Notes under the pieces: model-generated | What the model was told of the DNA's origin: nothing | The model's database searches: none | Seen by the model: the letters and a program-made list of their open reading frames with translations, nothing else | Made by a program: the position numbers and the translations under genes | Assembly: GCA_001897435.1 (NCBI GenBank) | Contig: MKSV01000007.1 | Coordinates: 248,001 to 312,000 of the forward strand | DNA length: 64,000 nucleotides | Direction of reading: 5' to 3' | DNA from: Acidobacteriales bacterium 59-55 | GTDB taxonomy: Bacteria > Acidobacteriota > Terriglobia > Terriglobales > Acidobacteriaceae | Shown: piece by piece, positions 48,701 through 64,000 of the stretch | How the letters are laid out: each line of letters opens with the position of its first letter | Position numbering within the stretch: the first letter of the stretch is position 1

Positions 48701-49143
48701 TGACTTGAGAGCGCCTCGCCGCCAGTTGCCGCATGTTGTTCCGTCAGCGGGCCGACGGAGAGGGTTTGCTGATCGGAGAGCGTAAGGACAACGGCCGATG
48801 CAGCGCCCGACAGGTTCATGGGCTGAGCGTATCGGACGGTGTGACGATCTACTTCGACCGAGAGATGGTAAAGTCCGGCAGGGATTCCTTCGAATCGAAA
48901 GTGCCCGTCGTCGCCCGTGGTGGCATCGATGTCTTCGTTCTTTCCTTTGAGATGAACGATAGCACCATGCAGCGGCGCACCTGAGGTATTACGCAAGATT
49001 CCTCGCCAAATGATTGGTACAGCGCCTTGTGCCATGGTGCGCGTCGGAACCAAGAAAAAAGCGGATAAGAACGCTATCGTCAGGCCTCTGGAGGGCCATC
49101 GAAACCAGAAATGTGTAATGACCAGTCTTCGCGCTTGCAGCAT
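45727..49143 (-). CDS. TonB-dependent receptor, Oar-like, coupled to GH79-like gene
   Basis: This 1138-residue outer-membrane receptor has a signal peptide (ending near TRTMAQ), a carboxypeptidase-type regulatory beta-sandwich (about 45-130: GILRNTSGAPLHGAIVHLKG), a plug domain (about 145-260, with LPLNKRDFSQLLLLAAG and QFAINGQRGVEAVFAMDGAD) and a long 22-strand-type barrel ending RQIQFSLKLIY. Such Oar/SusC-like receptors import oligosaccharides or other large nutrients by TonB energy. The overlapping GH79-like gene suggests a glucuronide-containing glycan. Its Shine-Dalgarno (GAAGGA) lies inside a small hairpin directly before the ATG. Confidence 0.92.
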   Translation of the reverse strand: MLQARRLVITHFWFRWPSRGLTIAFLSAFFLVPTRTMAQGAVPIIWRGILRNTSGAPLHGAIVHLKGKNEDIDATTGDDGHFRFEGIPAGLYHLSVEVDRHTVRYAQPMNLSGAASAVVLTLSDQQTLSVGPLTEQHAATGGEALSSQTVSELPLNKRDFSQLLLLAAGTMTDTNGATNFTQQFAINGQRGVEAVFAMDGADISDPEMGGSTFSNFNVDAVEEIRSSSGWMPAEIGRGAAGFTNIITRSGSSGFHGSIFEFVRNSAFDARNYFDHASAEHPERIPPFRRNEFGFTNGGPVRIPGLYDGRGKTYYFGQYQGFRQVLGTTQVFPVPTAEERDGRDTTAYPGDTLIVPVDPGIAKILARYPLPNLPTGSFGAHTYATSSKVVTNADQFSIRLDHNLSDRNHLFVRFNFNNLTGPTTNPDQTAIDPSFGVQYIDKQRNLAINFTRTVSPHFTMESSVSVTRSTPSFPTPNRTDPALKFSDGSFEAFNSPGGSVMTAYGNLFQAQQHFTITSARHNLKFGGEVRLNRDTTYYGTSPNGEYDFGGGTAYARSDIASLSGTHDIHIGDPLPDTLTGLLSGSPFVYTVAIAPSYFSNGEHIGVAAINRNAGAIYAQDSWKLNDHFLLDYGIRWEIYTPIAERAKRTAGFLNTGDTQQYVVNPQPGYKTNLNGWGPRVQLTWRASQLLQFHAGGAITVIPPNIWQDNFLTGSTPFTVYPRLTAAKGAPVPFGFQIMPSQLPRAYTPAGVDIFAGGNTKDVAPNTVLDIDRYQKDVAALTPSHVVSPLGLSGIDRSFGNASLYTWTAGLEKAFGTLTADVNYVGTAGVKLPRTSFPNAYPGAGPEFARHTEFDSSGNVIGGFGLENVITATAHSTYHALQASLSGNVAHGGPALQASYTWGKAIDDTSSVSGGLGATGAVAQAYPQNPFDTHPEKGPATFDVGQAFTLSAVQDLHVEYWGLLSRANRKATAGWQILGIATLTSGSPFTVYSGVQQTGAGSNGADRPDQIAKPHLSTSRKIREDYFGLGENNASYFSIPINLPNGTGPNKGRFGTLGRNTFRGPAFYNYDFAFIKDTPFGRRKSGSELINVQFRSEFFNLFNIVTMGLPANTLEGAGFGIISKTAGNSRQIQFSLKLIY

Positions 49144-49260: not shown

Positions 49261-51069
49261 ATGAAATTGTCTGAGCGGAGGGCCGACAGCGGCCGCAGCA
49301 AAGGTATAGTGGCATTCAGGAATATGAATAACCGATCTGCCAACATTCCCTATTTAGCCGACATTGCGACATCTGCCGCTCTTGATGCCTGCGAGATGCG
49401 CTCGTTGCAGATGAGAATCGGCAAGCAATTTTGCAGAGTGCTGGCTGCCGCCATGGTCCTTGTGATCTTGCTGCTTCCGGCAGCGGTCGCGCAGCAAGTA
49501 TCTCCAAAGTATTTTGGCGGAGCACACATACAAGGGACGGTTATTAGCGTCGACGGAAAGCCGGTAAGCGAAGCCACAGTTAGTCTCGAAAAGAAGGGCT
49601 CTCCGGATATTGTCGAGACAAAGACGAATGCCACTGGTGGCTTTGAGTTTTCGTCGCTCTCAAGCGGAAGCTATCGGTTAAGCGCAAAGAAATCGGGATT
49701 GCATAGCCACCCCGCTGAGGTGATGGCCTCCGCGGGAAAGAGTTCAGAAAAGGTCAGCCTGGTCCTCCAGGATACTGAGTCGCCTCCGGGTTCCGGTGCG
49801 TCTTCGGCAACTGGAGCGCCAGTCATGGAATTCACCGACAAGCCGAACTTTACCATTGCGGGTGTTACCGACTGGACCGCAGTCGGTGGCCATGGATCGG
49901 ATTCCGCGTTGCGAACGAGTGAATCACTCGCCAGCGAGACTGCTGCGCTTAAGCCTGAAGACGCCGGTCAAAAGGCAGCAGGCAGTTCCGAGGAAAAGAA
50001 ATCTGAGAGACAACTGCGTGCGGGACTCGCGAGCGATCCCCACAGCTTCAATGCAAATCATCTGCTTGGAAGATTTTATCTCCGTACCGATCGATATTCA
50101 GAAGCTATTCCGCTGTTGGAGAGTGCCTATCGGATTGATCCGTCCGATGGGGGGAATCAATATGATCTGGCGCTGGCATACGAAGGAAGCGGTGACCTCG
50201 TGCAGGCTCGCAAGCGCGTTAGTGAATTATTAGCAAAGCATCCCAGCGCCGATTTGCATCGACTTGCGGGTAAGTTGGACGAGAAGTCAGGCGATCCTCT
50301 GTCCGCTGTCAACGAATATGCGATGGCGGCAGAACTTGATCCGAGCGAGCAGAACTACTTTGAATGGGGCTCTGAGTTACTTCTCCATCGTGCTGTCTGG
50401 CAGGCGCAGGAGGTCTTTCGCAAGGGAGCGAATGCCTATCCCAAATCTGAGAGAATGCTGATGGCGCTCGGCACCGCACTCTTTGCCGGCGCTCGCTATG
50501 AAGAGGCGGCCCTTCGCCTGTGCGACGCTTCTGACCTGAATCCCGCGGACTCCAATCCCTACATCTTTTTGGGAAAGATCGAGATGGCTGCGCCTAATGC
50601 TTTAGCATGCGTTCAGCCCAGGCTGTATCGCTTTGTGCAGGAACAGCCCGGAAGTTCCACCGCCAACTACTTGTACGCGATGTCAATCCTGAAGCATCAG
50701 GAACAGTCGCCTGACAAACAGGCGGTGCAACACGCAGTAGCTTTGCTGACGAAGGCGGTGACGATTGATTCCAAGTGCAGTGAGGCCTACCTGCAACTCG
50801 GAATTATTTCTGCATCGCAGAGCGACCAGGACAAGGCAATTGGTTTTTACGAGAAGGCAATCGAAGCGAATCCCCAACTTGCCGATGCCTACTACCGGCT
50901 GGGAGCGGCTTATGACCGGACCGGTCAATCGGCAAAGGCAAAACGAGAGTTCGGGCTTCACGACCAAATTAAGCGACAACAAGCAGAAGACACTGAACGG
51001 CAGCGGCGAGAGATCAAACAGTTTCTGATCGTTCAGCCGGGAAAGACTGCCGGCCAAGGAGTTAAGTGA
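49261..51069 (+). CDS. Exported protein with carboxypeptidase-type regulatory domain and TPRs
   Basis: The 602-residue frame contains an internal signal sequence (FCRVLAAAMVLVILLLPAAVAQQ, about residues 57-79), so the true start may be ATG 49396 or 49411; none has a strong ribosome site and I give the longest frame. A carboxypeptidase-type regulatory domain follows (about 88-165: IQGTVISVDGKPVSEATVSL), then a linker and about nine TPR units (250-590). The regulatory domain matches those at the N-terminus of the Oar-like receptors. It probably acts in the periplasm as a scaffold. It is divergent from the TonB/GH79 operon and convergent with the CRTAC1 gene. Confidence 0.78.
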   Translation: MKLSERRADSGRSKGIVAFRNMNNRSANIPYLADIATSAALDACEMRSLQMRIGKQFCRVLAAAMVLVILLLPAAVAQQVSPKYFGGAHIQGTVISVDGKPVSEATVSLEKKGSPDIVETKTNATGGFEFSSLSSGSYRLSAKKSGLHSHPAEVMASAGKSSEKVSLVLQDTESPPGSGASSATGAPVMEFTDKPNFTIAGVTDWTAVGGHGSDSALRTSESLASETAALKPEDAGQKAAGSSEEKKSERQLRAGLASDPHSFNANHLLGRFYLRTDRYSEAIPLLESAYRIDPSDGGNQYDLALAYEGSGDLVQARKRVSELLAKHPSADLHRLAGKLDEKSGDPLSAVNEYAMAAELDPSEQNYFEWGSELLLHRAVWQAQEVFRKGANAYPKSERMLMALGTALFAGARYEEAALRLCDASDLNPADSNPYIFLGKIEMAAPNALACVQPRLYRFVQEQPGSSTANYLYAMSILKHQEQSPDKQAVQHAVALLTKAVTIDSKCSEAYLQLGIISASQSDQDKAIGFYEKAIEANPQLADAYYRLGAAYDRTGQSAKAKREFGLHDQIKRQQAEDTERQRREIKQFLIVQPGKTAGQGVK

Positions 51070-51105
51070 GAGAACAAGCCGGTTCGCCCGCTCGGCAGAG
51101 GAACG

Positions 51106-52887
51106 CTACGTCGATTTTGGCTTGAAGGAAGCAACGATGCCATCGCCTTCGCGAATCGTGAGTATCTGGTTTGCCTTGACCTTGGCGAATTTTTCGACCT
51201 TTTGTGTCGTTGGCCACTTCACTTCAATCAGGTCCACGATCTCCGCCTTTCCAATGCCGAAGTGAAGCCGCAAGTCGCTTTGTGACATGACGCTGGTGCC
51301 GCTGTGCACCTCGTCCATCTGGATATGTTTTCCGGTGATGACCCTCGCGCGCGCGCCGATCGCCGTGCGATTGCATTTAGTCCCGACCAGCTTGATCTTG
51401 ATCCAGTTCTGCTTATTGCCTCCGTCATTGCGAAGAAGCGAGGGCAGATCGTTCAGATTGAGCACCAGCGCATCCATATTGCCGTTGTTGTTGTAGTCTC
51501 CAAAGGCCGCGCCACGGCTGGAAAAATGCTCGCTGATTCCCGGACCCATCTCCGCGGAGACATCCTTGAAGGTGCCATTGCCAAGATTTTTGTACACTAG
51601 TCGCGGATTTTTGAATGACTCGCCGAAGTTATAGCGATCGACCTCCGGGTATACGTGTCCATTGACCTGAAGGATGTCCTTCCATCCGTCGTTGTCGTAG
51701 TCGATGAATCCGCACCCCCATGCCACATAGCGGTTGTTGACTGCAATGCCTGAAGGAGAGGTTACATCGGTAAAAGTCCCGTCGCCGTTGTTGTGGTACA
51801 GGTTGCAGGTGTCATCCACGAAGTTGGTCTTGAAGATGTCGAACCATCCGTCGCAATCATAGTCGGCCACAGCGACACCCATGCCGGCCTGCTCGTGCCC
51901 ATCGTTGTTGTAGGCGCAACCTGCCATCACCGCAATATCGGTGAAGGTGCCGTCGTGATTGTTCTTGAAGAGAATGCTCGGCTCCGAGTCGACGGCAATG
52001 TAAATGTCGGGCCATCCATCGTTGTCAAAATCGTAGGACACGGGCGTGATCGAGTAGCGCGGACCGGGTTTCAAAATCCCCGATCGCTCGGAGACATCGG
52101 TAAAAGTTCCGTCGCCATTGTTGTGATAGAGAAGGTTGTCGCCGCCCGGAAGACCTCGTGGTCCGCACATGATCGGGACGCCCTTCCACTGGCAGTAACT
52201 CGTCTCGTTTGCAGGAGGGATCGTATTTGGATCCAGCTTGATGTAGTTGCATACGAACAGATCGAGATGGCCGTCGCGGTCATAGTCGAGAAAAGTGCAG
52301 CCTGATCCCCAACGCCCTTTTTCCTGGTAGAGTCCGGCCTTACGGGTCACATCCGTGAAGGTGCCGTTTCCGTTGTTGCGAAAGAGGATGTTGTGTCCCC
52401 AGAAGCAGCAGAACAAGTCGTCCCATCCATCGTTGTCATAGTCGCCCACGCAGACGCCGGTCTGCCATCCGGTAATCCCCAGCCCTGACTTCTCTGTTAC
52501 ATCGCTAAATGTGCCGTCGCGATTGTTCTTGTACAGGTGCGATATTGGCGCTTTCCCAGGCGGCCATGTCGTATCGAGCCGGTTGCCATTCGTGAGATAG
52601 ATATCCAGCCACCCATCGTTGTCGTAGTCGAAGAAAGCCACCCCGCTTCCTTTAGTCTCGATGATGGACCGCTTGTGCTCAATGCCACCCCAGACGTTGG
52701 GGACGTTGAGACCGGCTTGCTGAGCCACATCCACAAAATGAACCTCGGATCCAGTTGATGCCGAAGTCGCCGCTTCCACTGTTAGCGGGTACTTCCATCT
52801 CCACAGCGGAGTTGTCAGTGCATCCGTCAATGCACCGCCAAGTACAAAGAGGGAAGACCCAAGGAAGCGCCGGCGCGGAAAGATCAT
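51106..52887 (-). CDS. Tat-exported CRTAC1 family protein (FG-GAP propeller plus ASPIC/UnbV)
   Basis: This 593-residue protein starts with a Tat-like signal (MIFPRRRFLGSSLFVLGGAL). Seven calcium-loop motifs of the DYDNDGWLDIYLTN type are spread over about residues 80-480, fitting a seven-bladed FG-GAP/VCBS propeller. The C-terminal ASPIC/UnbV domain follows (about 495-585: NWIKIKLVGTKCNRTAIGAR, then LHFGIGKAEIVDLIEVKWP). Proteins of this architecture are exported; their molecular function is not established. It lies 171 bases after the 854-residue TPR gene and is probably the last gene of that unit. Confidence 0.9.
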   Translation of the reverse strand: MIFPRRRFLGSSLFVLGGALTDALTTPLWRWKYPLTVEAATSASTGSEVHFVDVAQQAGLNVPNVWGGIEHKRSIIETKGSGVAFFDYDNDGWLDIYLTNGNRLDTTWPPGKAPISHLYKNNRDGTFSDVTEKSGLGITGWQTGVCVGDYDNDGWDDLFCCFWGHNILFRNNGNGTFTDVTRKAGLYQEKGRWGSGCTFLDYDRDGHLDLFVCNYIKLDPNTIPPANETSYCQWKGVPIMCGPRGLPGGDNLLYHNNGDGTFTDVSERSGILKPGPRYSITPVSYDFDNDGWPDIYIAVDSEPSILFKNNHDGTFTDIAVMAGCAYNNDGHEQAGMGVAVADYDCDGWFDIFKTNFVDDTCNLYHNNGDGTFTDVTSPSGIAVNNRYVAWGCGFIDYDNDGWKDILQVNGHVYPEVDRYNFGESFKNPRLVYKNLGNGTFKDVSAEMGPGISEHFSSRGAAFGDYNNNGNMDALVLNLNDLPSLLRNDGGNKQNWIKIKLVGTKCNRTAIGARARVITGKHIQMDEVHSGTSVMSQSDLRLHFGIGKAEIVDLIEVKWPTTQKVEKFAKVKANQILTIREGDGIVASFKPKST

Positions 52888-53058
52888 AGGTGAGAGCCAT
52901 TATAGCGACAGAATTCCGTTTCGCAGAAGACGCCTCGAGTTCAACGATTCATGGCAATTCTGTTCCGGCGGGGAGCTGCTGACGTCGGTTTTTCTTCAGA
53001 GCCCCGAGAGCAAGTTGCGGCGTTCGTTTGCGCCAGACTCACCATTCAGTGGAGTCTT

Positions 53059-55623
53059 TTATAGCGTTTTGTCGGCAAGATAGAGTGCAATTTGAAGCAA
53101 TTGCATCTTCTTCGAATTCGACAACGGTTCGTCGCCGGTTGGAGCAGTTACAGGAGCTTGCGCCAGGGTCTCTTCAATCCGGGTTACATTCAGACCTCTT
53201 CGTGCGCTGCTGTTCTTGAATCGATCCAATACCTCTTTGGCCTTGGCTATCTGACCGGTTTGATAGTAGAAAACGCCCAGCGTCGAATAGCTTCCCGGCC
53301 ACTCCGGCAACATCTCCACGGCGCGCTCCAATTGAGTGGCCGCGTCCGAAGTATTGCCTTCCAGCGCCGAAGTCAATCCCAGTCCCCATATGATCTTTCC
53401 CGATCCCGGGATACGGGTTTGACCTTTCAAAAGCGTTTGCTTCGCGGCCGCGATATTATTTTCGCGAAACTGCAGAAGCGCCAGCGAAAGATAGTCCCGG
53501 TCATTGTCAGGATTGCGGGCGATGGCACTGCGGTATATCTCCTCGGCTCGCGCAGAATCGCCCTGACGGGCGTAAATATCTCCCAGCAAAGCAAGGTAGG
53601 AGTCGTCCTTCTGACCTTGCGGTGAAACCTGCATGGCAGCATCCAGCGCATTCTTATAAAGCCCTTTGTGGAAGTATGCATTCGCAAGATCGAAACTGAT
53701 ATCGTCCGATCCAGGTGTGGCCTGCTGTGCTGCCTGGAAGTGCTGTATAGCAGCGTCATAGAAGCCGTATCGAGCTAACAGAACGCCGGTCCCCGTCAGG
53801 GTTCGGGAGTCTCCTGGCCGCGCTTTGTCGAGCTGCGCGATTGTGCTTTCGGCGTCTTCAACTTTGCCGGCCTTTAGATAGGCCTCAGCCAGCGCGTACA
53901 AGACTTCAGGCTGATCGGGATGCAACTTGAGCTGCGCGACTAATTCAGTGATGTCCTGTTGAGCGCGCGCCTTTGGAGCCAGCGCCGAGCGGCTATTTAG
54001 GTAATCGAAGAGGTGCTCATAAGGATGCGACGTGGCGGAAGCGTCTTTGGAGAGAGCTTGAAACTGGGCCATGTCCCGCTCCGCTGCTGCGGTCTGATGC
54101 AGGCTCTTTTCTGCCATCGCCAACTTGTAGTATCCGGTCGCCGGGCTGCTGCTCACTTTCACATATCGTCTCAGCAACACTGCCGCTTCAGAAAATTTCT
54201 TGCTTTCCATGCGAAGGTTCGCCAGTTCCAGCAGCGCCTCGGGATAGTCAGGATCGGACCGGAGAACCTTGAGGAAGATGGCTTCCGCTCCCACAGAATT
54301 TCCCTGCAACTTTGCGATATAGCCGAGTTGGAATGAACAGAAATTATTGTGGGGCTCCAGCTTGAGCCCATTTTGGAAATCCTGTCTGGCATCGTCAAAC
54401 CTTCCCAGACGAATGTTTGAAAGTCCGAGAAAGGAATTGGCCCGCGCCGAAGGCTCGGCTTTAATCAGCTTGTTGAAGGTCTCGATGGATTTGTTGATTT
54501 TTTCTGACCTGAAATAACTCTCGCCCAGAGCTGAGAGAAGATCGGAGCGGTCCGGTGCCACTTTCAGGGCCTCTTCCAACAGCGGTATCGCATCTTCGTA
54601 ATATTTTTGCGACATGCTGATCTCGGCCATGAGATAGAGGATGTTCGGATTTCCGGGCGTCGCCTTATTGGCTCGAACCAACAAATCCAGCGCATCCAGA
54701 GGCCGCGATTCATTTCTGTAAACCTGCGCCAGCAGATATTGCGTCTCCGTGGATTCGGGCTTCAGTTTGAGTGCGCGGGCTAGCGCAAGCTCTGCCTTGG
54801 CATTGTCGCCACCCAGGAGCGATGCCTCCCCGAGATTGAAGAGGATCTCAAAGGTTTGCGGCTTCAATGCATCTGCTTTTTCCAACTCAAGCTGGGCGGC
54901 CTTGTACTGTTTTTCCGAGGCAAGCAGGACGCCAAGGGAAAAATGCAGCTGAACGTCATCTTTGTTCTCCGCTGACAAGCGAGTTGCCAGCCGCAGCGCC
55001 TCTGCCGTTCGCTTACTTTGCAGGTAGGCCCGAATCAGATTGAGATTTGTTTCGAGGCTGGCGGGGTGGACACGCTCAAACCGTACAATCGCCTCGGCCG
55101 GCGATCCCTTATCCAACAGAAGCAGGCCGAGATTGTAGTTTGCATCCCGATTTTCCGGGTCGAGCCGCAGAACCGTCCGGAACTCTTTCTCGGCCAGGCT
55201 AAGCTGCTTGTCGGCCAGGTAGACATTGCCGAGGTTATTGTGGGTCTTGGTGGAGTTGGGAGCAAGCTTTAGCGCTTTGTGAAATGCATCGAGAGCATTT
55301 GGATAATTGCGCTCTTCGCTCTCGATAATGCCCAGCAGATTGTAGCCTTCAACGGAGGGGCTGTGCTGAAGCTCGTCGAGCGTCATGGCCTTCGCCTCTT
55401 CAAGACGGCCCTGATGGACGAGTGCTTCCTCCTGTTGCAGACTTGCAGGAGGCTGTGAAGAGGGTCGCTGTGCCACGCACGCGATGGGAACCAAGAAGGC
55501 TAGAAAGAGGGCGAGCGTGCCGGTTGCACGCCTTAACTCTATGGCGACTGTCGGCTCGCTCGGAGCTGCGGCGTGAAGCTCCTGCTGTCTTCGTAGCTTC
55601 GAATAATCAGACAGCATGGTCAT
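53059..55623 (-). CDS. Large exported or membrane-anchored TPR protein
   Basis: This 854-residue protein has an N-terminal hydrophobic helix (GTLALFLAFLVPIACVAQ, about 35-52) that can serve as signal or anchor. The rest is an almost continuous series of about twenty TPR-type helical repeats, for example HNNLGNVYLADKQLSLAEKE and NYNLGLLLLDKGSPAEAIVR. No enzymatic domain is visible, so it is likely a periplasmic interaction scaffold. The ATG at 55623 overlaps the stop of the upstream CRTAC1-thioredoxin-TPR gene (ATGA), which decides the start and shows translational coupling; a second ATG lies at 55617. Confidence 0.88.
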   Translation of the reverse strand: MTMLSDYSKLRRQQELHAAAPSEPTVAIELRRATGTLALFLAFLVPIACVAQRPSSQPPASLQQEEALVHQGRLEEAKAMTLDELQHSPSVEGYNLLGIIESEERNYPNALDAFHKALKLAPNSTKTHNNLGNVYLADKQLSLAEKEFRTVLRLDPENRDANYNLGLLLLDKGSPAEAIVRFERVHPASLETNLNLIRAYLQSKRTAEALRLATRLSAENKDDVQLHFSLGVLLASEKQYKAAQLELEKADALKPQTFEILFNLGEASLLGGDNAKAELALARALKLKPESTETQYLLAQVYRNESRPLDALDLLVRANKATPGNPNILYLMAEISMSQKYYEDAIPLLEEALKVAPDRSDLLSALGESYFRSEKINKSIETFNKLIKAEPSARANSFLGLSNIRLGRFDDARQDFQNGLKLEPHNNFCSFQLGYIAKLQGNSVGAEAIFLKVLRSDPDYPEALLELANLRMESKKFSEAAVLLRRYVKVSSSPATGYYKLAMAEKSLHQTAAAERDMAQFQALSKDASATSHPYEHLFDYLNSRSALAPKARAQQDITELVAQLKLHPDQPEVLYALAEAYLKAGKVEDAESTIAQLDKARPGDSRTLTGTGVLLARYGFYDAAIQHFQAAQQATPGSDDISFDLANAYFHKGLYKNALDAAMQVSPQGQKDDSYLALLGDIYARQGDSARAEEIYRSAIARNPDNDRDYLSLALLQFRENNIAAAKQTLLKGQTRIPGSGKIIWGLGLTSALEGNTSDAATQLERAVEMLPEWPGSYSTLGVFYYQTGQIAKAKEVLDRFKNSSARRGLNVTRIEETLAQAPVTAPTGDEPLSNSKKMQLLQIALYLADKTL

Positions 55624-58600
55624 CGCAATATATCCATTGCCTGTTTTGCCCGCAAATTCTGAGGCTGTACGCGCAGCAGGCCCACTAAAACCCCTCTCGC
55701 TTTGTCCTTGTTGCCTTGTATCGCATAGAGGCGGGCAAGGTTGAGGTAGGCCTGATCATTATTTGGTACAAGCCTGATTCCGGTCTTGAACTGCTCTTCA
55801 GCCTTTTCGTAGTTCTGTAGCCGCACGTAGACAATGCCAAGATTGTTCAAGGCTTCGGAATATGCTGGGCGAAGCTCGATTGCTTTCTGCAAATAGCCTG
55901 CTGCGCGCGGTAGTTGATTCTGTTGAGCGTAAAGCATGCCGAGGCTGTAATTCACTTCGGGATCATCGGGTTGAATTCCGAGCGCCTGACTCAGGCACTC
56001 CTCTGCCTTCGTGAAATCTCCCTTCCGTCGATAGACATTGCCTAGATTCAAGAGAGCGATCTCATAACCCGGTCGAAGCTGCAGGGCCCGCTGAAAATTT
56101 TCTACGGCCTGGTCGGGATGGCCTTCCTGCGCAGAGATCATTCCCAGGTTATTCCATGCTTCCGGGTAGTTGGGGCGAAGCTTCAAGGTCTGTTCCAGAT
56201 AGCGGCGCGCCTGTTCGAGATCGTTCCTGCGCAGGTTGAGCGTCCCCAGGTTGTAGTACCCCTCCGGGTCATCGGGTTTGGAGGCAATCACCTGCTGGAA
56301 AGACTCTGCCGCCTGATCGAGATAACCATGCTGGAACAGCGCCACGCCATAGGTAAAGTCGTTGCGTTGGAAGGAGCCCTGGTAGAGTTGGCCCTTGAAT
56401 GGAATCGCCCGCTGCACTCGTTCGGCAACCGTTGTGGGAGCGGTTCTCACATCCTCCAGCACACGCGCAGGATCGATGGAGCCCTGGTAAATCTTGACGA
56501 TCATCCCGTCCTTGTCCAACAGGAGGGACGTAGGTAGTGCCAGATCTCTGCGGCGGTCGAATAGATAGCGATAGATGATGTTGTAGATGCCGGCGATCTC
56601 TTCCGTTGCGAAGACAACAGGAAAGGAAAGCCGCTCCCCGGTTGCCATCGACCGCGCGGCAGCAATATCGGCCGGGTCGTCGATGTTCACCGCAACAATA
56701 TCCAGATAGCCAGCCGTAAACGCAGATCGATGTTGGTGGAGTTGTCTCAACTGCTCGCGGCAGAGGGGCGCTGTCGTAGCCCAGAAGTTGAGCAGGACGA
56801 AGCCGCCTTTAAACTGGCGAAGCTCCCGTGTATTGCCTGCAAGGTCCGGCAATGAAAAGTCGGGGGCTTTCAATGGTGCAATCAGCCACGTCTCGGCATG
56901 AGCCGGTAGGGGATCCAGCGTCGGCGGTGGCTCCGCTTGCGCATAGGACTTAGGCGCCGAAGCGAAGGCTTTGGCCACGAACAAGTGGTTGCCTTCTTCA
57001 ATCTCAATACGGTGATTCGCGGGCAGCGACTCAAATTGTTGCGTAAGCCCGCTTGGCCAGCGCACCGTTGCCTTCAATGTGCCTTCCGGCTTGCCCAATC
57101 CGAAGAAGACTTCCTTGGAGTGTTGCGCCAGAAAACCGGAGCCCGCCTGTAGATATTTTGTCTGGCGAAGAGTGCCCGCCTCTACCGTGATGGCGGCTCC
57201 GATCGCATCGCGATTGCTCTTGTGTCCCCGCAATCGGAATGCGATGGAGTCGCCCAGATGTTTCATCGCATTGTGCAGAATTCTCAACTGAGGAGCATTC
57301 CGGCTTTTGAGAATCACCTCCAGCCGTCCATCATGGTCGATATCGGCGAGCGCAAAGGAGCGGCTGTCCTCAAGAAAATCCAGCCCCGTAACGCCGGAGA
57401 CCTCGGAAAAGGTGCCATCGCGATTGTTCGCGAGCATGACATTCCTTTCGTAGGCGTTCCATGAACTGTCCGATCGGATCAACTCATTGATGGCATTCCA
57501 TCCGTGCTCGTAGGCCAGTGAAGCCGTGCCGTCCTCGGGCGATTTTGCTACCACCTGCCGCCAGAAAAAGCTCGCGATATCGTTCCGGTCGACAGCAGAG
57601 ATGTATCCGTTTGTGACATAGAGGTCGGAGTAGCCGTCATGATCGAAGTCCCAGAAGTCCGCGGACCACGACCATCGGCCCATCGCCACTCCAGCCTGCT
57701 GACCGATGTTCTGAAACTTTCCATTACCATCGTTGCGATAGAGGGCATTCCCTCGTGCGTGCCGCTGGTAGAGTGCGCGGATGTTCTGCGGTGCAGCCTG
57801 GTGAAACTGCGCCTGCTCCGAAACCCTCTGTCCGGCGGCCTCCCACATGCTTGTGATGTAGATGTCCTGCCGTCCGTCGTTATTGAAGTCAGACCAGCAG
57901 GCGCTCATTCCGGCGCCCACATCTTCGATGCGAGACTCCTTTGAAGCGACGGTAAATGTTCCATCTCCGTTGTTGCGATACAACTGAGAGCTGCCGAAGT
58001 CGTTCGCGATGGTCAGATCGGGGTGACCGTTGGAGTTTGAGTCTCCCCAGGCGCACGCAAAACTGTACCGGTCGTTTTCTACGTTCAAACCCGCGGCATC
58101 AGTCTTTTCTACAAAGTGCCCATTGCCTTCGTTATGCAAGAGGCAATTCGGGGGTCCATTGCGGGCATCGTAATAGGGAACCGGATAGTGATACTGGTCC
58201 AGCCCCAGATAGTACATATACGTGCAGAAGAAGATGTCGAGACGACCGTCGCCATCGTAGTCGGCGATTGCTGCATGAGTGAACGTTCCTTGAGGCGCGC
58301 GCGCAAATTTGAAGGCATCGCGCTTGAGCGAAAAGGTCCCGTCTCCCTGATTCACAAAGAGCAGGGGACCACTGCCGCAGACGACCAGAAGGTCTTGGAG
58401 TCCTCTGTTGTCGAAGTCGGCAAACAGGGCGCACGCCGCATTATCGAGCGCGCCCACACCGGCCTTCTCGGTGACATCCTCAAAGGTGCCATCGCCACGG
58501 TTGCGGTAAAGGCGGTTCGGCAGCCCCGCCGGCTGACAGACGTAGAAATCATCGAACCCATCGTTGTCATAATCGCCTGCTGCTACGCCGTTATTGCCGT

Positions 58601-59462
58601 AGACATCCATTCCGCAGGCACCGTCCAGAACGGTTCGCCAATAGTCCACGCCGCGAAGCATCTGGCTCTTGTACGACTCGGTCCCACCCAGGGCTTGAGC
58701 AGTTACGTCAAGAAATGTAGTTTGATCCCCGACGCTGAGTATTTCTTCGCTCGCCTCCCATCTCTGAACCTTCCAGTTTTCCGATTCCTTTTCCTTGCGT
58801 GTCCATTCGGTTCGCCAGGATCCCACGCGCTCCTCCCGCCGGGCGTCGCTACGGAGAGCGACGATATCGTATCGAATCTGCAGTTCGACTGTCAGGGGAG
58901 TACTGGCGATCTCATTGATCGCATAGATCTCGAACTCCGCGGTTTCAACCTTTGAGACGGGTCCCAGCCAGGTTTGAAACTCCTTGAGAAATTGCTCGAC
59001 CCCTGAAGGCGTTGCTGCGCCGAACTGCCTTTTGGTAACGTCGATGCCGTATCCGGAGCGTACCGGGACTTCCTTGACAGGGCGGAGCGATGAGGCTTCG
59101 AGCGTGGTGGAGACCAGCTTCGACAAGTCTGAATGGTCGTGGGCGGATCGTCGGAGAGACTGACTCCATTGGCTCAGGAGCGAATCGATCTCGAAGGCAT
59201 ATTTCTCGGTCTGGTAACTATCCGAGCCGGGAGCTACCAGACGAAGGACATCGGCCAAAGAAGACTGAGCTGGATAGTGAGGCTTGAAACGGATGTCGTT
59301 GTATAGAAAGGTGGACTGTTCGGCCGAGAGACCCCGGGAAGACGCAAACAGGAAGCTGGACCCGAAAAGAGGAGCCGAACGGAGCAGGAGAGGGGCAAAT
59401 CCAATGCTCTTGAGGAGCGCCCGTCGGGACAGCAGCGACTTTTCATTGCTTTGATCTGACAT
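55620..59462 (-). CDS. Tat-exported CRTAC1-thioredoxin-TPR fusion protein
   Basis: This 1280-residue protein starts at ATG 59462 with a Tat-type signal (LLSRRALLKSIGFAPLLLRS). Order: a 200-residue N-terminal part with a possible NTF2-like section, a seven-motif FG-GAP propeller (first DYDNDGFDDFYVC near 297, last DIDHDGRLEVILK near 700), ASPIC/UnbV (about 750-840: DAIGAAITVEAG, VFFGLGKPEGTLKATVRWP), a TlpA/AhpC-like thioredoxin domain (about 870-1030) and five or six C-terminal TPRs. The thioredoxin active site reads WATTAPLCREQL, keeping one cysteine where relatives have CxxC. Function is unknown. It overlaps the TPR gene downstream and diverges from an Oar-like receptor. Confidence 0.88.
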   Translation of the reverse strand: MSDQSNEKSLLSRRALLKSIGFAPLLLRSAPLFGSSFLFASSRGLSAEQSTFLYNDIRFKPHYPAQSSLADVLRLVAPGSDSYQTEKYAFEIDSLLSQWSQSLRRSAHDHSDLSKLVSTTLEASSLRPVKEVPVRSGYGIDVTKRQFGAATPSGVEQFLKEFQTWLGPVSKVETAEFEIYAINEIASTPLTVELQIRYDIVALRSDARREERVGSWRTEWTRKEKESENWKVQRWEASEEILSVGDQTTFLDVTAQALGGTESYKSQMLRGVDYWRTVLDGACGMDVYGNNGVAAGDYDNDGFDDFYVCQPAGLPNRLYRNRGDGTFEDVTEKAGVGALDNAACALFADFDNRGLQDLLVVCGSGPLLFVNQGDGTFSLKRDAFKFARAPQGTFTHAAIADYDGDGRLDIFFCTYMYYLGLDQYHYPVPYYDARNGPPNCLLHNEGNGHFVEKTDAAGLNVENDRYSFACAWGDSNSNGHPDLTIANDFGSSQLYRNNGDGTFTVASKESRIEDVGAGMSACWSDFNNDGRQDIYITSMWEAAGQRVSEQAQFHQAAPQNIRALYQRHARGNALYRNDGNGKFQNIGQQAGVAMGRWSWSADFWDFDHDGYSDLYVTNGYISAVDRNDIASFFWRQVVAKSPEDGTASLAYEHGWNAINELIRSDSSWNAYERNVMLANNRDGTFSEVSGVTGLDFLEDSRSFALADIDHDGRLEVILKSRNAPQLRILHNAMKHLGDSIAFRLRGHKSNRDAIGAAITVEAGTLRQTKYLQAGSGFLAQHSKEVFFGLGKPEGTLKATVRWPSGLTQQFESLPANHRIEIEEGNHLFVAKAFASAPKSYAQAEPPPTLDPLPAHAETWLIAPLKAPDFSLPDLAGNTRELRQFKGGFVLLNFWATTAPLCREQLRQLHQHRSAFTAGYLDIVAVNIDDPADIAAARSMATGERLSFPVVFATEEIAGIYNIIYRYLFDRRRDLALPTSLLLDKDGMIVKIYQGSIDPARVLEDVRTAPTTVAERVQRAIPFKGQLYQGSFQRNDFTYGVALFQHGYLDQAAESFQQVIASKPDDPEGYYNLGTLNLRRNDLEQARRYLEQTLKLRPNYPEAWNNLGMISAQEGHPDQAVENFQRALQLRPGYEIALLNLGNVYRRKGDFTKAEECLSQALGIQPDDPEVNYSLGMLYAQQNQLPRAAGYLQKAIELRPAYSEALNNLGIVYVRLQNYEKAEEQFKTGIRLVPNNDQAYLNLARLYAIQGNKDKARGVLVGLLRVQPQNLRAKQAMDILR

Positions 59463-59623
59463 GGACTCTTCAAGAGATCGGGAAGAAGGAGAGTTTTCGC
59501 AGAATATCACCTGCTGTATACCGGCAGATGCTCATGAGTTGCTTGGCGGTAACTGCTTGTACAGGCTGTCTTAGTAGGTGGGTTGGCGATCTAGGACATT
59601 TAATGGGGTCTGGACTCAAACTT

Positions 59624-59654
59624 TTGATTGACTTGGATTTCGTTATGTACTAAT
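59624..59654 (+). promoter_or_regulatory. Candidate promoter of the Oar-like receptor gene
   Basis: TTGATT (59624-59629) and overlapping TTGACT (59628-59633) can serve as -35 boxes; an extended -10 TG-T-ACTAAT lies at 59646-59654. Spacing is 19 or 15 bases, so neither pairing is ideal. The predicted start lies about 12 bases before the LacI-type operator. Confidence 0.3.
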
Positions 59655-59672
59655 GTTTGCAATCGTCGAAGC

Positions 59673-59686
59673 TGTAACCGATTACA
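59673..59686. promoter_or_regulatory. LacI-family-type operator in the divergent promoter region
   Basis: TGTAACCGATTACA is a 14-bp near-perfect palindrome (TGTAA/TTACA arms around a CCGA centre with the central CG typical of LacI/GalR/CcpA sites). It lies 62-75 bases before the receptor frame and just after a candidate promoter, where binding would block transcription. No LacI-family gene is present in the window. Confidence 0.6.
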
Positions 59687-59747
59687 CCGTATTCAAACGT
59701 TGAAGTGAACCTCCCGGCATGAAAGATCTGATTAGAAGAAGAATGGG

Positions 59748-62700
59748 TTGGACGGAAGAAAGGTGACGAAATTGAAGAATATTTGGATGGCTATGGATCG
59801 CAACGCTCTCGGTTGGCTAAGAAAATATGGGTGCCTCTCGCTTGCATGTTTGTGCTTTCTCCTCGTCTCGTCAGAATATGCGGCAGCGCAGGTAGATCAA
59901 GGAGCGATCACCGGAACTGTTTCAGATACCACCGGCGCTGTTGTGCCTGGTGCGGTCGTTACCCTGGTGAATACGGACGTGGGTCTGAGCCTCAAGAACA
60001 CAACGGACAGCGGCGGTGTGTACACCTTTTCCCCCATCAGAATTGGACACTATTCGGTTACCGTCACCGCCCCCGGCTTTGCGAAGACGACCCAGCAGAA
60101 CATCTCGGTCAACGTCGCGCAGCGTCTTCAGGTAAACGTTGAGCTCAAGCTGGGCTCCGAGAACGAAACCGTCGAAGTAACCACGGCTCCGCCGCAACTA
60201 CAGACGGCAGACGCGGCTGTGGGGCAGGTCATCACCGAGCGCAGCGTCAACAACCTTCCACTCAATGGCCGCAACTTTACCTTTCTCGCCCAACTCGGCG
60301 CTGGTACGCAGACGCCCCAGGCGGATACGCGGGGCAATGCGGCTTCCGGCGCCTTCTCAGCGAACGGCCTGCGTCCTTCGCAGAATAACTACCTGCTCGA
60401 CGGTATCGACAACAACTCCAATGCAGTTGACTTCCTGAACGGCACGAACTTCATCGTTCTTCCCCCGGTGGACGCGATTCAGGAGTTCAAGGTTCAGACC
60501 GCGGACTTCAGCGCGGAACTGGGCCGTTCCGCCGGCGCTGTTCTCAATGCGACCATCAAGTCCGGCACCAACAGTTTCCACGGCGCCGCATGGGAGTTCT
60601 TCCGTAACGACAAGCTTGACGCTGCTGACTGGTTTGAAAAGCAGAAAAAGGGCATCCTGCGTCAGAATCAGTTTGGCGCTTCAATTGGCGGTCCAATCAT
60701 CAGGAACAAGATCTTCTTCTTCGGCGACTATGAGGGTACCCGGCGCGTCCAAGGCACGGTCTCAAATGGAACAGTTCCGACTCTGAGGGAGGTGAACAGC
60801 AATTTTCAGGACCTTTCCGACTTAATCACAGCGCAAAACGGTAAGACGCAAGCAGACAATCTTGGTCGAATTATCCCGCAAGGGACGGTTCTCGATCCTG
60901 CAACGACGAGGTTGGTTACAGTCGGCACTGTCGATCCCGTGAGCGGAATTACACCGGACCCGGCAAAAGGGGGAAAGACTGGCTATGTGCGCGATCCATT
61001 CGGAACCTGTCCTGCAAGTAGCCTAACTTTCGTCGGTGGCACCTGCGGCTTGAATCAACTTCCATCTGGCCGGCTAGATCCCGTTGCCCTCAAACTGCTC
61101 AGCCTCTATCCAAAACCGACCGACACCTCGCTCACTTCGAACTTTACATCGAGCCCTCATTTGTTCGAGCATCGCAATGCATTTGATACTCGCGTTGACG
61201 TTAACCCCACTCAGAAAGACCAGGTATTTTTCCGCTTCAGCTATGTAGACGATCCGCAATATATACCTGGCATCTTTGGAGGCATCGCCGACGGAGGCGG
61301 ATTCCAGCAGGGCATCCAGACCGCTAAGTCGAATCAGTCAGCCTTTGGATACACGCACGTCTTCACGCCGACGACGATTAATGTATTGCGCGTCGGCTTC
61401 AATCATCTTCACACCACCCGCTTTGGACCTGAGGGCAATACGAACGGTATTCCGGACCAGTTCGGAATTCAAGGTATTCCACAGTTTGCTGGAAACGGTG
61501 GCCTTCCTACGATGACAATTGGTGGACTGGCGACTCTCGGAAGCAACTCCTTCCTGCCCTCCGACGAGATCAGTCAGACGCTCCAGATCACGGATGACTT
61601 TACCAAGATCTGGCACTCCCACAGCTTCAAGGGGGGGATCGAATCCCAGCATGTAAAGTTCTCGACTCTTCAGCCCGGCTATTCGCGTGGCAGCTTTGAC
61701 TTCAACGGTCAATATACCGATATTCCTCAGAAAAACAATGGCGGAACAGGAATCGCGCAGTTCTTGATTCTCCCGCAAGCGGCAACCGTTCCCAATGGAG
61801 TCGATTACTCCGGCGGCTCCAACTCGATCAATGCTTCCAATGTCAACAAGACCTATGACGCGCGAATATACTTCGCGTCGTACCTTCAGGATGACTGGAA
61901 GGTCACTCCCAAGTTGACACTCAATCTCGGCCTGCGCTGGGATTACTTCGGCCCGATCAACGAGACCAACGGCGGTCAGGCTAACTTTGTCCCATCAGGG
62001 CCTCCCAACGGAGTTCCGACTTTCCTCATTCCTGCCACGGGCAAGGACGACAGGACTCTGTCAACCAGCTTCGTTACTTTGTTGGCGAAGGATGGGATTA
62101 AACTGGAGCAGACCGACAAATACGGTCAGGGACTGGTGCAGACACAAAAGAGCAACTTTGCACCGCGTGTCGGTTTCGCATATCAGGTCAATCCGAAGGT
62201 GGTTGTACGCGGCGGTGTTGGTCTCTTCTACAACGCATTTGAAAATCAGGGATATGGCCCGAACATTGGGGAAAACTATCCCTTCGTCTTCAATTTCGGT
62301 TATACGCCAGTGGCTCCTACCGGTAGCCCCAATGGCCTGTCAGATGTTTTGCCAATCAGCTATAACACCCCATGGGCTGGTTGCTCCACTGCGGGACCTG
62401 GTAACACCGCAACTATGAGTGCGGGTCTCTCCTGCGTGGCATTTACGCCTTCGGCGGTAAACGCTTCAAACCTGGGACTACAGGGTCTTCAATTCGCCTA
62501 TCAAACCCCGCTTACTTTGAGCACAAATATTACGGTCCAATACGCGCTGACGCATAGCCTGTCTCTCCAGGCGGCCTATGTAATGACTCAGGGCAGTAAC
62601 CTTCAGCAGGGGCTCGGCGCAAACAACGTGACCGCTATCCTGCCCGCAGGCACGAATACAAAAGATCCGACGATCGCAGGGACAGTACCTTTCCCCGATT

Positions 62701-63605
62701 TCTCAGGTGGAAGTTACCAGGCAACGGTCGGGCAGAGTAACTATAACGGGTTGCAGACGAAGATCGAACAACAGTACTCGAACGGTCTCTCCTTCCTGTT
62801 CGCCTATACCTACTCCAAGACACTCTCGGACGCGGGCGACCTGCTGAATGGAGGAAGCGTAAGCGGGCTTCGCGCGGCTTCCGTGCCTGGTCTGGGGCCC
62901 ATGTTCGATTGGGGCCTGGCTAACTTCGATATCCGGCAAGTACTGCACTTCAGCGGAGGATACGAACTTCCGATTGGCAAGAACAAGCGCTTCCTCGGGA
63001 CCTCCAGCAGGGCGGTCGATGCCGTTGTTGGAGGATGGTCTGCAAACTGGATTGCCACGCTTCAGGGCGGCCAACCTCTCAGCCTTAGCAACTGTCCCAC
63101 TGCGACAACTGCGGGAACCACATGCCGCGACGTCCGTGTCGCAGGTCAGGATCCGAAACTTGGCCGTTACATGGACTCGCAAAATAAGCCGAACTGGATT
63201 GGGAATGCCAAGGCTTTCAATCAACCGTGCCAGATCGGAACAGATCCTGATACTAAGAAGCTAATTGTTCTTCCTACTCCGGAAGGCTGCATCCCTTATG
63301 GAACAGGTAGTGCGGCCCTTGGATTCGCGGGACCGGTCACAACAGGACCCGGATTCCGCCGCCTGGACTTCTCGTTGTTCAAGGCAATTCAGCTCAATGA
63401 CCGGTTCTCCATGCAGTTCCGGACCGAGTTCTTCAATATCCTCAACCATCCGAACTTCAATGCTCCGAACTTCGGCGGCAATGGAGTAGTAGCGGTCTCC
63501 GGTTCCGGTAACTTCAACAGTAATAGTTTCGGTGAGATTGGGTCCACGCGCGATGCTCCCTACGACCCGCGGCAGATTCAGTTCGCACTCAAGCTGTATT
63601 ACTAA
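59748..63605 (+). CDS. TonB-dependent receptor, Oar-like
   Basis: This up to 1285-residue outer-membrane receptor has a signal peptide (GCLSLACLCFLLVSSEYAAAQ), a carboxypeptidase-type regulatory domain (about 50-140: GAITGTVSDTTGAVVPGAVV), a plug (about 150-260: LPLNGRNFTFLAQLGAG and FSANGLRPSQNNYLLDGIDN) and a long beta-barrel ending RQIQFALKLYY. The frame begins with TTG 59748; ATG 59787 or 59793, right before the signal peptide, are equally possible starts. It probably imports a complex nutrient. It is divergent from the CRTAC1-thioredoxin-TPR unit, with a shared control region holding a LacI-type operator. Confidence 0.94.
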   Translation: MDGRKVTKLKNIWMAMDRNALGWLRKYGCLSLACLCFLLVSSEYAAAQVDQGAITGTVSDTTGAVVPGAVVTLVNTDVGLSLKNTTDSGGVYTFSPIRIGHYSVTVTAPGFAKTTQQNISVNVAQRLQVNVELKLGSENETVEVTTAPPQLQTADAAVGQVITERSVNNLPLNGRNFTFLAQLGAGTQTPQADTRGNAASGAFSANGLRPSQNNYLLDGIDNNSNAVDFLNGTNFIVLPPVDAIQEFKVQTADFSAELGRSAGAVLNATIKSGTNSFHGAAWEFFRNDKLDAADWFEKQKKGILRQNQFGASIGGPIIRNKIFFFGDYEGTRRVQGTVSNGTVPTLREVNSNFQDLSDLITAQNGKTQADNLGRIIPQGTVLDPATTRLVTVGTVDPVSGITPDPAKGGKTGYVRDPFGTCPASSLTFVGGTCGLNQLPSGRLDPVALKLLSLYPKPTDTSLTSNFTSSPHLFEHRNAFDTRVDVNPTQKDQVFFRFSYVDDPQYIPGIFGGIADGGGFQQGIQTAKSNQSAFGYTHVFTPTTINVLRVGFNHLHTTRFGPEGNTNGIPDQFGIQGIPQFAGNGGLPTMTIGGLATLGSNSFLPSDEISQTLQITDDFTKIWHSHSFKGGIESQHVKFSTLQPGYSRGSFDFNGQYTDIPQKNNGGTGIAQFLILPQAATVPNGVDYSGGSNSINASNVNKTYDARIYFASYLQDDWKVTPKLTLNLGLRWDYFGPINETNGGQANFVPSGPPNGVPTFLIPATGKDDRTLSTSFVTLLAKDGIKLEQTDKYGQGLVQTQKSNFAPRVGFAYQVNPKVVVRGGVGLFYNAFENQGYGPNIGENYPFVFNFGYTPVAPTGSPNGLSDVLPISYNTPWAGCSTAGPGNTATMSAGLSCVAFTPSAVNASNLGLQGLQFAYQTPLTLSTNITVQYALTHSLSLQAAYVMTQGSNLQQGLGANNVTAILPAGTNTKDPTIAGTVPFPDFSGGSYQATVGQSNYNGLQTKIEQQYSNGLSFLFAYTYSKTLSDAGDLLNGGSVSGLRAASVPGLGPMFDWGLANFDIRQVLHFSGGYELPIGKNKRFLGTSSRAVDAVVGGWSANWIATLQGGQPLSLSNCPTATTAGTTCRDVRVAGQDPKLGRYMDSQNKPNWIGNAKAFNQPCQIGTDPDTKKLIVLPTPEGCIPYGTGSAALGFAGPVTTGPGFRRLDFSLFKAIQLNDRFSMQFRTEFFNILNHPNFNAPNFGGNGVVAVSGSGNFNSNSFGEIGSTRDAPYDPRQIQFALKLYY

Positions 63606-63619
63606 GGCAGGATGAAGAC

Positions 63620-63668
63620 GCCCCGGAAAGGCACACTCGCAAGGTGCCTCTCCGGGGCTTATCATTTT
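63620..63668 (+). terminator. Hairpin terminator after the Oar-like receptor gene
   Basis: A 15-bp stem with one mismatch (GCCCCGGAAAGGCAC, 63620-63634, with 63644-63658) and a 9-base loop is followed by TTATCATTTT. It lies 14 bases after the stop. Confidence 0.85.
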
Positions 63669-63708
63669 GTAGATCGCTTTCTTTACGCGGCGATCCCGGA
63701 GGCGAACT

Positions 63709-64000
63709 GTGAGCAGGAGGGCTTGGTGTCGGCGCGCGATGCTTTGTTCTTTATTGGCCTGGGCAGCATTTGCGGCGGCTGAAGGCAGTCCACAGCAAAA
63801 GCTGGATCGTCAATTTCAATCTGCAGTGGCGCAGTACAACGCAGGACAGTTCGCAGAGGCGGCAACTCAACTCGAAGGTCTATTGCCTCACGTCCCCAAC
63901 AACTTTGAAGTTCAGGAACTTCTCGGTATGGTCTACGCCTCAATGTCGCAAGATGCAAAGGCTGTCATCCATCTCGAAGCGGCGGTGCGATTGAAGCCAG
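63709..64000 (+). CDS. Exported TPR protein, N-terminal part (runs off the right edge)
   Basis: The first 97 codons are present. The start is GTG 63709, with GGAGG six bases upstream; an internal ATG at 63739 lacks such a site. A signal peptide (RRAMLCSLLAWAAFAAAEG region) leads into TPR-like helices: QFQSAVAQYNAGQFAEAATQ, then ELLGMVYASMSQDAKAVIHL and EAAVRLKP. It is thus another exported TPR protein following the Oar-like receptor, 104 bases after its stop and beyond a terminator. The rest of the gene and its domains are outside the window. Confidence 0.8.
   Translation, partial: MSRRAWCRRAMLCSLLAWAAFAAAEGSPQQKLDRQFQSAVAQYNAGQFAEAATQLEGLLPHVPNNFEVQELLGMVYASMSQDAKAVIHLEAAVRLKP

Follow-up and report, generated by a model that had tools for sequence, protein, structure and literature searches.

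The subject of this study is a block of genes for exported proteins in a 64,000-nucleotide stretch of the genome of Acidobacteriales bacterium 59-55 (contig MKSV01000007.1, positions 248,001 to 312,000 of the forward strand; the whole stretch is hereafter 'the window'), and in particular FUS, a gene that joins a CRTAC1-type propeller, a thioredoxin fold and a TPR tail, and its divergent neighbour OarB, which encodes an Oar-like receptor (Table 1). An earlier note, made from the letters of the window, had listed these genes and credited their products with export signals or membrane anchors. Open reading frames and Pfam domains agree with that list, and twin-arginine (Tat) or hydrophobic N-termini are present, gene starts and export signals having been called by eye. 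A correction is needed at one end: the operon that OarB opens crosses the window edge and runs OarB-TPR471-ALKP-UNK402, its last two genes lying outside the window and outside the earlier account.

Table 1. Features of the FUS-OarB locus. Positions follow the numbering of the window, unless genome and contig are given (G000, window genome).
Feature	Position	Strand	Basis or remark
CPDTPR: carboxypeptidase-regulatory domain and TPR	49261-51069	+	Pfam; convergent end of block
CRTAC: Tat-type CRTAC1 protein, FG-GAP and UnbV_ASPIC	51106-52887	-	Pfam
TPR854: 854-residue TPR protein	53059-55623	-	Pfam
FUS: CRTAC1 / AhpC-TSA / TPR fusion	55620-59510	-	Pfam
APLC (FUS residues 914-917) at the CxxC place	56760-56771	-	First Cys lost
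Ala codon GCG (FUS residue 646), motif NDI-A-SFFWRQVV	57573-57575	-	Aligns with TGA of distant relatives
LacI-type operator TAACCGATTA	59675-59684		Predicted; in the 237-base FUS-OarB gap
OarB: Oar-like outer-membrane receptor, first gene of divergent operon	59748-63605	+	PF25183, E 1.1e-204
TPR471: exported TPR protein	63709-64000, on to ~65124	+	TPR domain
ALKP and UNK402	G000:C7:313198-315611		Outside the window; AlkP-superfamily folds by predicted model

From its N-terminus, FUS consists of a Tat-type signal, a stretch without a listed Pfam match, a CRTAC1 propeller with ASPIC domain, a TlpA-like thioredoxin fold and the TPR tail; its FG-GAP repeats and ASPIC/UnbV domain score above the curated cut-offs, which places it in the CRTAC1 family. 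The stop of FUS and the start of TPR854 overlap by 4 bases.

A search of contigs with FUS returned 77 loci, 74 of which (L005-L078, some fragmentary) hold FUS orthologues; in L079-L081 the match is confined to the TPR repeats or an adjoining stretch. All but one of the 74 carry titles that point to Acidobacteriota, the exception, L027, being a metagenome bin labelled Rhodanobacteraceae. Neighbours were counted at ≥35% identity, upstream of FUS in the 46 loci whose sequence extends 8 kb or more on that side (genes within 9.5 kb) and downstream in the 55 loci that extend 6.5 kb or more (genes within 8 kb). Upstream we found OarB in 43/46 loci, TPR471 in 38/46, UNK402 in 35/46 and ALKP in 32/46; downstream, CRTAC in 48/55, CPDTPR in 43/55, TPR854 in 35/55 and a second CRTAC1 gene, CRTAC2, in 25/55. 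OarB is not upstream in three of the 46, and L017 and L054 have it downstream instead. CRTAC relatives at these loci are mostly 72–90% identical to that of the window, FUS itself is 48–77% identical where gene order is kept, and mean column identity over 59 aligned FUS proteins is 62%. The earlier note had named the want of a conserved neighbourhood as one of two outcomes that would speak against its grouping, and this outcome did not materialise. The cluster is a real locus that a group of soil Acidobacteriota has conserved. Its unit comprises two divergently oriented operons, OarB-TPR471-ALKP-UNK402 and FUS-TPR854-(CRTAC2)-CRTAC, together with CPDTPR as a convergent gene.

The promoter region shared by the two operons carries the predicted operator. 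The palindrome TAANCGNTTA occurs exactly once in the window, where 0.25 sites are expected by chance over the full length, and is present in 38 of 58 OarB-FUS intergenic regions. In 13 of the 58 a lacI gene faces OarB, and all 13 have the palindrome, as do 23/42 regions in which FUS faces OarB and 2/3 that face B411. Altogether, the 58 regions hold 45 of the 51 sites counted over the full 1.45 Mb of loci; Markov resampling predicts 0.26 for these regions and never gave more than 2 in 200 rounds. The recurrence of a LacI-type palindrome between the divergent genes speaks for co-regulation of both operons, a prediction made from sequence. The best LacI relative in the window genome is 43% identical, and a scan for sigma-70-type promoters between 59400 and 59850 found none against 0.5 expected. 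The window genome also contains a paralogous Oar-CRTAC1 locus (G000:C6:36056-42479), with another site of the longer form GTAANCGNTTAC at C6:39965, flanked by a further Oar receptor and a further ASPIC gene.

ALKP, Tat-type by eye, and UNK402, which starts 5 bases after ALKP in the window genome, are both AlkP-superfamily folds according to their predicted models. For ALKP (predicted local distance difference test score, pLDDT, 74) the fold matches lipoteichoic acid synthases and sulphatases, with a best E-value of 2.6e-9. UNK402 (pLDDT 89) was considered as a fold without relatives, its Foldseek matches being weak (E 1.8e-3), yet VIA-align superposes it, within residues 136-402, on a sulphatase with Z 13.6 over 198 residues at 3.9 Å, and the idea was dropped. 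By sequence, searches against the PDB gave best E-values of only 0.048 for ALKP and 0.22 for UNK402; the L023 copies of the pair have no Pfam match at E 0.01 and no NCBIfam match at E 0.001. A paralogous pair, B411/B434 (34% and 26% identical to ALKP and UNK402, respectively; no Pfam match for the L063 copies), has each of its members in 7/46 loci, so a pair of this type seems to move as a unit. A UNK402/B434 profile has matches in 22 of 297 Acidobacteriota genomes chosen as a spread sample, and 20 of the 22 are from the family of the window genome.

A plainer account would make this an ordinary Oar-type neighbourhood, one of the dozens of Oar receptors that Acidobacteriota have beside CRTAC1 or TPR genes, and a cluster without any dedicated joint function. 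The window genome (4.9 Mb) does hold 47 near-full-length Oar-type receptors (our own count, weaker matches excluded) and 13 ASPIC matches, eight of which lie within 6 kb of an Oar receptor, in zones that make up 11% of the genome, so some chance adjacency is to be expected. However, gene order around OarB and FUS recurs across other Acidobacteriota, and the Oar/CRTAC1/TPR cluster is thus more than chance adjacency. That the orthologous order is kept with FUS at 48–77% identity, that the operator recurs in the shared promoter region and that ALKP/UNK402 has a paralogous counterpart at other loci also tell against this account, which we consider unlikely.

The genes around the conserved unit offer a lead on function. 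Large flanking genes at nine loci were selected by length, and 10 of the 13 listed were scanned; seven of the ten are glycosidases (three GH36, three GH2 and one GH3), a proportion to be taken as a lead and not as a statistic, and the remaining three comprise a carboxylesterase, a molybdopterin-binding protein and a gene without a match. Receptor and operator recur across loci, while the flanking glycosidases vary. In the window genome, the genes after UNK402 encode a further Oar receptor, a GH92 glycosidase and, on the opposite strand, a multihaem cytochrome-TPR protein. From the flanking glycosidases, the GH92 gene and the LacI link we infer that uptake of plant glycans is the likeliest use of the locus: OarB would most likely capture and take up a glycan-derived ligand, and the propeller and TPR proteins would serve as exported binding and scaffolding parts. 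The earlier note had proposed an assembly that captures and processes an imported substrate, with its proteins in one complex; capture and uptake fit the glycosidases, and the proteins may form such a complex, but a functional thioredoxin finds no support.

The thioredoxin fold of FUS has lost its presumed active site. The first cysteine of the CxxC motif is present in 0/59 FUS orthologues and the second in 30/59, and none of the 59 proteins has a C..C in the segment that corresponds to residues 900–930. With the motif absent throughout, we rejected a redox role of this domain through CxxC; the selenocysteine (Sec) of distant relatives, described below, is missing as well.

The FUS profile, searched against the 297 genomes, led to distant CRTAC1-thioredoxin genes, most of which have one in-frame TGA. 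We fetched 16 such loci; in 13 the TGA stands at the same place, in the motif D(L/T)-TGA-(S/T/P)-x-(F/L)WR, and the other three have Asp (L108), Gln (L120) or Asn (L121) there. A wider search, with the 13 TGA forms against 396 genomes, gave matches in 77 genomes and, after removal of 13 duplicate loci and the partial second frame of L152, a table of 90 distinct genes (the second G094 copy, G094:C1:155699, is omitted, and the G000 row is the window itself). The FWR motif is present in 76 of the 90, with TGA in 51, Cys in three and another residue in 22; of the rest, five leave the Sec column uncovered, nine have Glu there without the motif, and the in-frame stops in those five and in the six inspected of the nine fall towards the end of the matched stretch. 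All 51 TGA codons lie in one alignment column, spread over 44 genomes and 16 family codes (our count), and in all 51 genes coding sequence continues beyond the TGA. Beyond these codons, the matched regions of the 51 genes contain 13 in-frame stops close to the end and, in L190, a single TAG upstream. Among the genes for which a thioredoxin domain was matched, all 50 that bear TGA keep CxxC, as does 1 of the 20 that do not. Searched against NCBIfam, two TGA forms gave only thioredoxin-type matches. At the corresponding place the window FUS has GCG (Ala), not UGA, and is no selenoprotein itself.

L196, L197 and L199 (genomes G277 and G253) are natural Cys forms, CRTAC1 proteins with DYCTxFWRH and no matched thioredoxin domain. 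L192 (G059:C1:3997900-4002600) is a CRTAC1 of another subfamily, in which the in-frame TGA is followed by T-C (U-T-C) but not by the main family's hairpin, and no thioredoxin domain is matched. L120 (G163:C1:2709000-2728000), with Gln at the Sec place, is a second, diverged FUS copy, 44% identical to FUS and with Oar and TPR genes of its own, about 48 kb from the first copy in that genome.

Downstream of the TGA, a predicted six-pair hairpin (stem from 11 nt, loop from 17 nt) is similar to a bacterial selenocysteine insertion sequence (bSECIS). Across the 13 TGA genes of the first set, 76/78 pairs (97.4% of cells) can form, and two pairs show changes on both sides. Random synonymous recodings (random codons, 75% G/C weight at third positions) gave 49.0 ± 3.4 pairs with a maximum of 60 in 2000; shuffles reached the observed pairing or covariation score in 0/500 trials and the count of doubly changed cells in 3/500, and slid controls were at most 68% paired. 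Among all 51 TGA genes, the hairpin has six pairs in 43, four in seven and two in one (L192); in the first set, one of 70 distinct non-TGA sequences has six pairs, and the window sequence has two.

Most host genomes appear equipped to read such a codon. A tRNA-Sec scoring at least 60 bits was found in 39 of the 44 TGA genomes (11/12 and 28/32 in two scans), selB above cut-off in 11 of 12 tested and a selA match in 22 of 25 tested, with G392 below cut-off. Four of the five genomes without tRNA-Sec (G310, G090, G110 and G271) have selA; the fifth, G266, is 72% complete, lacks a selA match and has selB only as fragments. In G001 (L170, G001:C1:1154127-1158321) a selA match begins about 460 bases past the stop of the Sec-form gene, on the same strand, a proximity that may tie this protein to Sec supply; in G031 a selA match lies 3.8 kb after the Sec-form match.

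The picture is different in the family of the window genome, where 3 of 15 genomes tested have a tRNA-Sec of at least 60 bits. The window genome, one of the 12 without, has no selA, no selB above cut-off and a best tRNA-Sec score of 45 bits; selA is absent from all three genomes of its own genus that were tested (G000, G163 and G103). G103 (47.6 bits) and G112 (47.5 bits) score just at the tRNA-Sec family gathering score of 47, probably reflecting another tRNA. Three members of the family (G023, G084 and G210) retain selB and tRNA-Sec together with a FUS that has Ser or Asn; therefore the Sec residue was lost from FUS independently of the machinery.

The direction of change was read from a propeller tree with 65 rows, for which the Cys forms served as root and from which rows without FWR, 20 near-duplicate rows and L192 had been excluded. 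The non-Sec clade that holds the window (29 rows, support 100/98) is nested inside Sec rows; its sister is one Sec row, and the next branch out is also Sec (96/95). The Sec label can be fitted to the tree with three changes, and CxxC requires at least two. Tree counts alone cannot decide between loss and gain; because of the nesting, together with the outgroup, we favour loss of Sec in the window lineage. L121, inside the window clade, has Asn at the Sec place and yet keeps CxxC, so Sec loss probably preceded CxxC loss. A possible second case of joint loss is L188, which has Glu at the Sec place and a reading frame that ends after ASPIC, without thioredoxin.

Taken together, selenocysteine at the TGA of the distant relatives is strongly supported as the predicted decoding, and the window FUS looks like the relic of a selenocysteine oxidoreductase, since the relatives have TGA and CxxC, the window clade nested among them has mostly Ala, Ser or Gly at the Sec place, and the FUS orthologues lack CxxC. 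The ancestor of FUS would have been a CRTAC1-thioredoxin protein whose propeller motif D[LT]U-S-x-FWR contained an in-frame UGA, most probably read as Sec; the Sec would have been the reactive group, probably recycled by the fused TlpA-like CxxC domain. By comparison of the sequences, the window lineage lost both Sec and CxxC, Sec probably first, and FUS may then have been kept as a non-redox scaffold or binding part. On balance we hold it probable that the locus is a conserved envelope locus under a LacI-type operator, likely for glycan uptake, whose FUS descends from such a UGA-bearing ancestor by loss of Sec and CxxC. The more specific proposition, that exported CRTAC1/ASPIC selenocysteine oxidoreductases exist whose active Sec sits in the propeller and is recycled by a fused TlpA domain, and that the one in the window died and became a scaffold for LacI-controlled, Oar-mediated uptake, we put at even chances.

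Several observations weigh against these conclusions. Five of the 44 TGA genomes are without tRNA-Sec at the 60-bit threshold, and selA was not found in G080, G140 and G266 among the 25 TGA genomes tested. Eight of the 51 TGA hairpins fall short by two or more pairs and 2 of 25 non-TGA genes have all six; two of the five hairpin measures are less clear than the rest, with the number of changed pairs reached in 32/500 shuffles and that of pair types in 135/500. The Sec loci mostly do not have a neighbourhood of the window type. In the tree, the placement of one Sec row as sister to the window clade has only 92/65 support, and the joint loss of Sec and CxxC is a single event, one independent pair and not significant. 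As for regulation, the operator is absent from 19 of the 42 regions facing FUS directly, and the longer form GTAANCGNTTAC is not enriched across the window genome (3 sites, where its reversed control has 6).

Two alternatives concern the chemistry. FUS could still be catalytic by another route, for example by substrate-assisted chemistry with Ser or Ala at the Sec place, and so not be a relic; the SFFWRQVV motif is nearly unchanged, D644, F648, F649, W650 and R651 each being present in 59/59 orthologues. Against this, the Sec place is occupied by different residues (A 34, S 13, G 10, N 1, D 1) and the partner CxxC is gone, which makes continued catalysis improbable in our view. That the TGA of the distant relatives is read-through, a reassigned code or a sequencing error—or, in a variant that we rejected as unlikely, simply the end of the gene—could draw on the genomes without selA (3/25) or tRNA-Sec (5/44), but one codon recurring in one column of 51 genes, a hairpin with compensatory changes, the use of TGA as the terminal stop by some of these same genes, selA, selB and tRNA-Sec in most hosts tested and three homologues with Cys at that place make it very improbable indeed.

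A second pair of genes next to the block was considered as part of it and set aside: an OarA-like gene (≥35% identity) is found in only one of the 74 loci, L073. The pair consists of a GH79-like gene, with a weak Pfam match below cut-off, and OarA, a second Oar receptor (44261-49143, with a 4-base overlap), and is possibly a separate glycan uptake pair.

Three consequences follow from this work. Most non-Sec relatives carry Ala, Ser or Gly at the Sec place and only three genes carry Cys, so the Sec-form CRTAC1 is a selenoprotein candidate that methods based on Cys homologues may miss; the deep-Sep paper says as much of its own method, which may overlook selenoproteins without Cys homologues (PMC12013277). 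CRTAC1-type propellers, which also occur in humans (cartilage acidic protein 1), gain a testable chemistry in the form of a putative reactive selenium residue in a bacterial propeller. The envelope cluster, finally, is now a defined locus with a predicted operator, open to direct knock-out and induction tests. In the open-access literature—subscription papers and GenBank annotation aside—we found nothing on a CRTAC1-type selenoprotein or on this locus.

Compared with known systems, the Sec form shares with other prokaryotic selenoproteins a UGA followed by a bacterial SECIS-like hairpin and Sec machinery in most hosts. It differs in that its UGA falls outside the thioredoxin fold; among the 119 prokaryotic selenoprotein families or subfamilies in Table 1 of a review from May 2026, there is no CRTAC1, FG-GAP, ASPIC or propeller family (PMC13188914). 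The best sequence match of the Sec-form profile to a solved chain is human CRTAC1 (PDB 9etn, E 1.8e-35), which shares the FG-GAP propeller family, the best-matched stretch being in the propeller, with no thioredoxin or TPR part named for that chain. The thioredoxin domain of the Sec form matches the TlpA/ResA oxidoreductases (1jfu, 2f9s; E about 1e-20) and keeps their CxxC, whereas the window family lacks it and has the domain fused behind a propeller. ALKP presumably resembles the DUF1501-type AlkP-superfamily proteins, being Tat-type by eye and having a model similar to AlkP proteins and sulphatases; it differs in that its L023 copy has neither a Pfam nor an NCBIfam match. The locus as a whole can be set beside the SusC/SusD polysaccharide utilisation loci, with which it shares an outer-membrane receptor, exported proteins for binding, glycosidases in the vicinity and a regulator of sugar type; no SusD appears among the listed Pfam matches of the scanned genes, which are a part of the neighbours, and the window locus combines propeller and TPR proteins with an Oar-like receptor.

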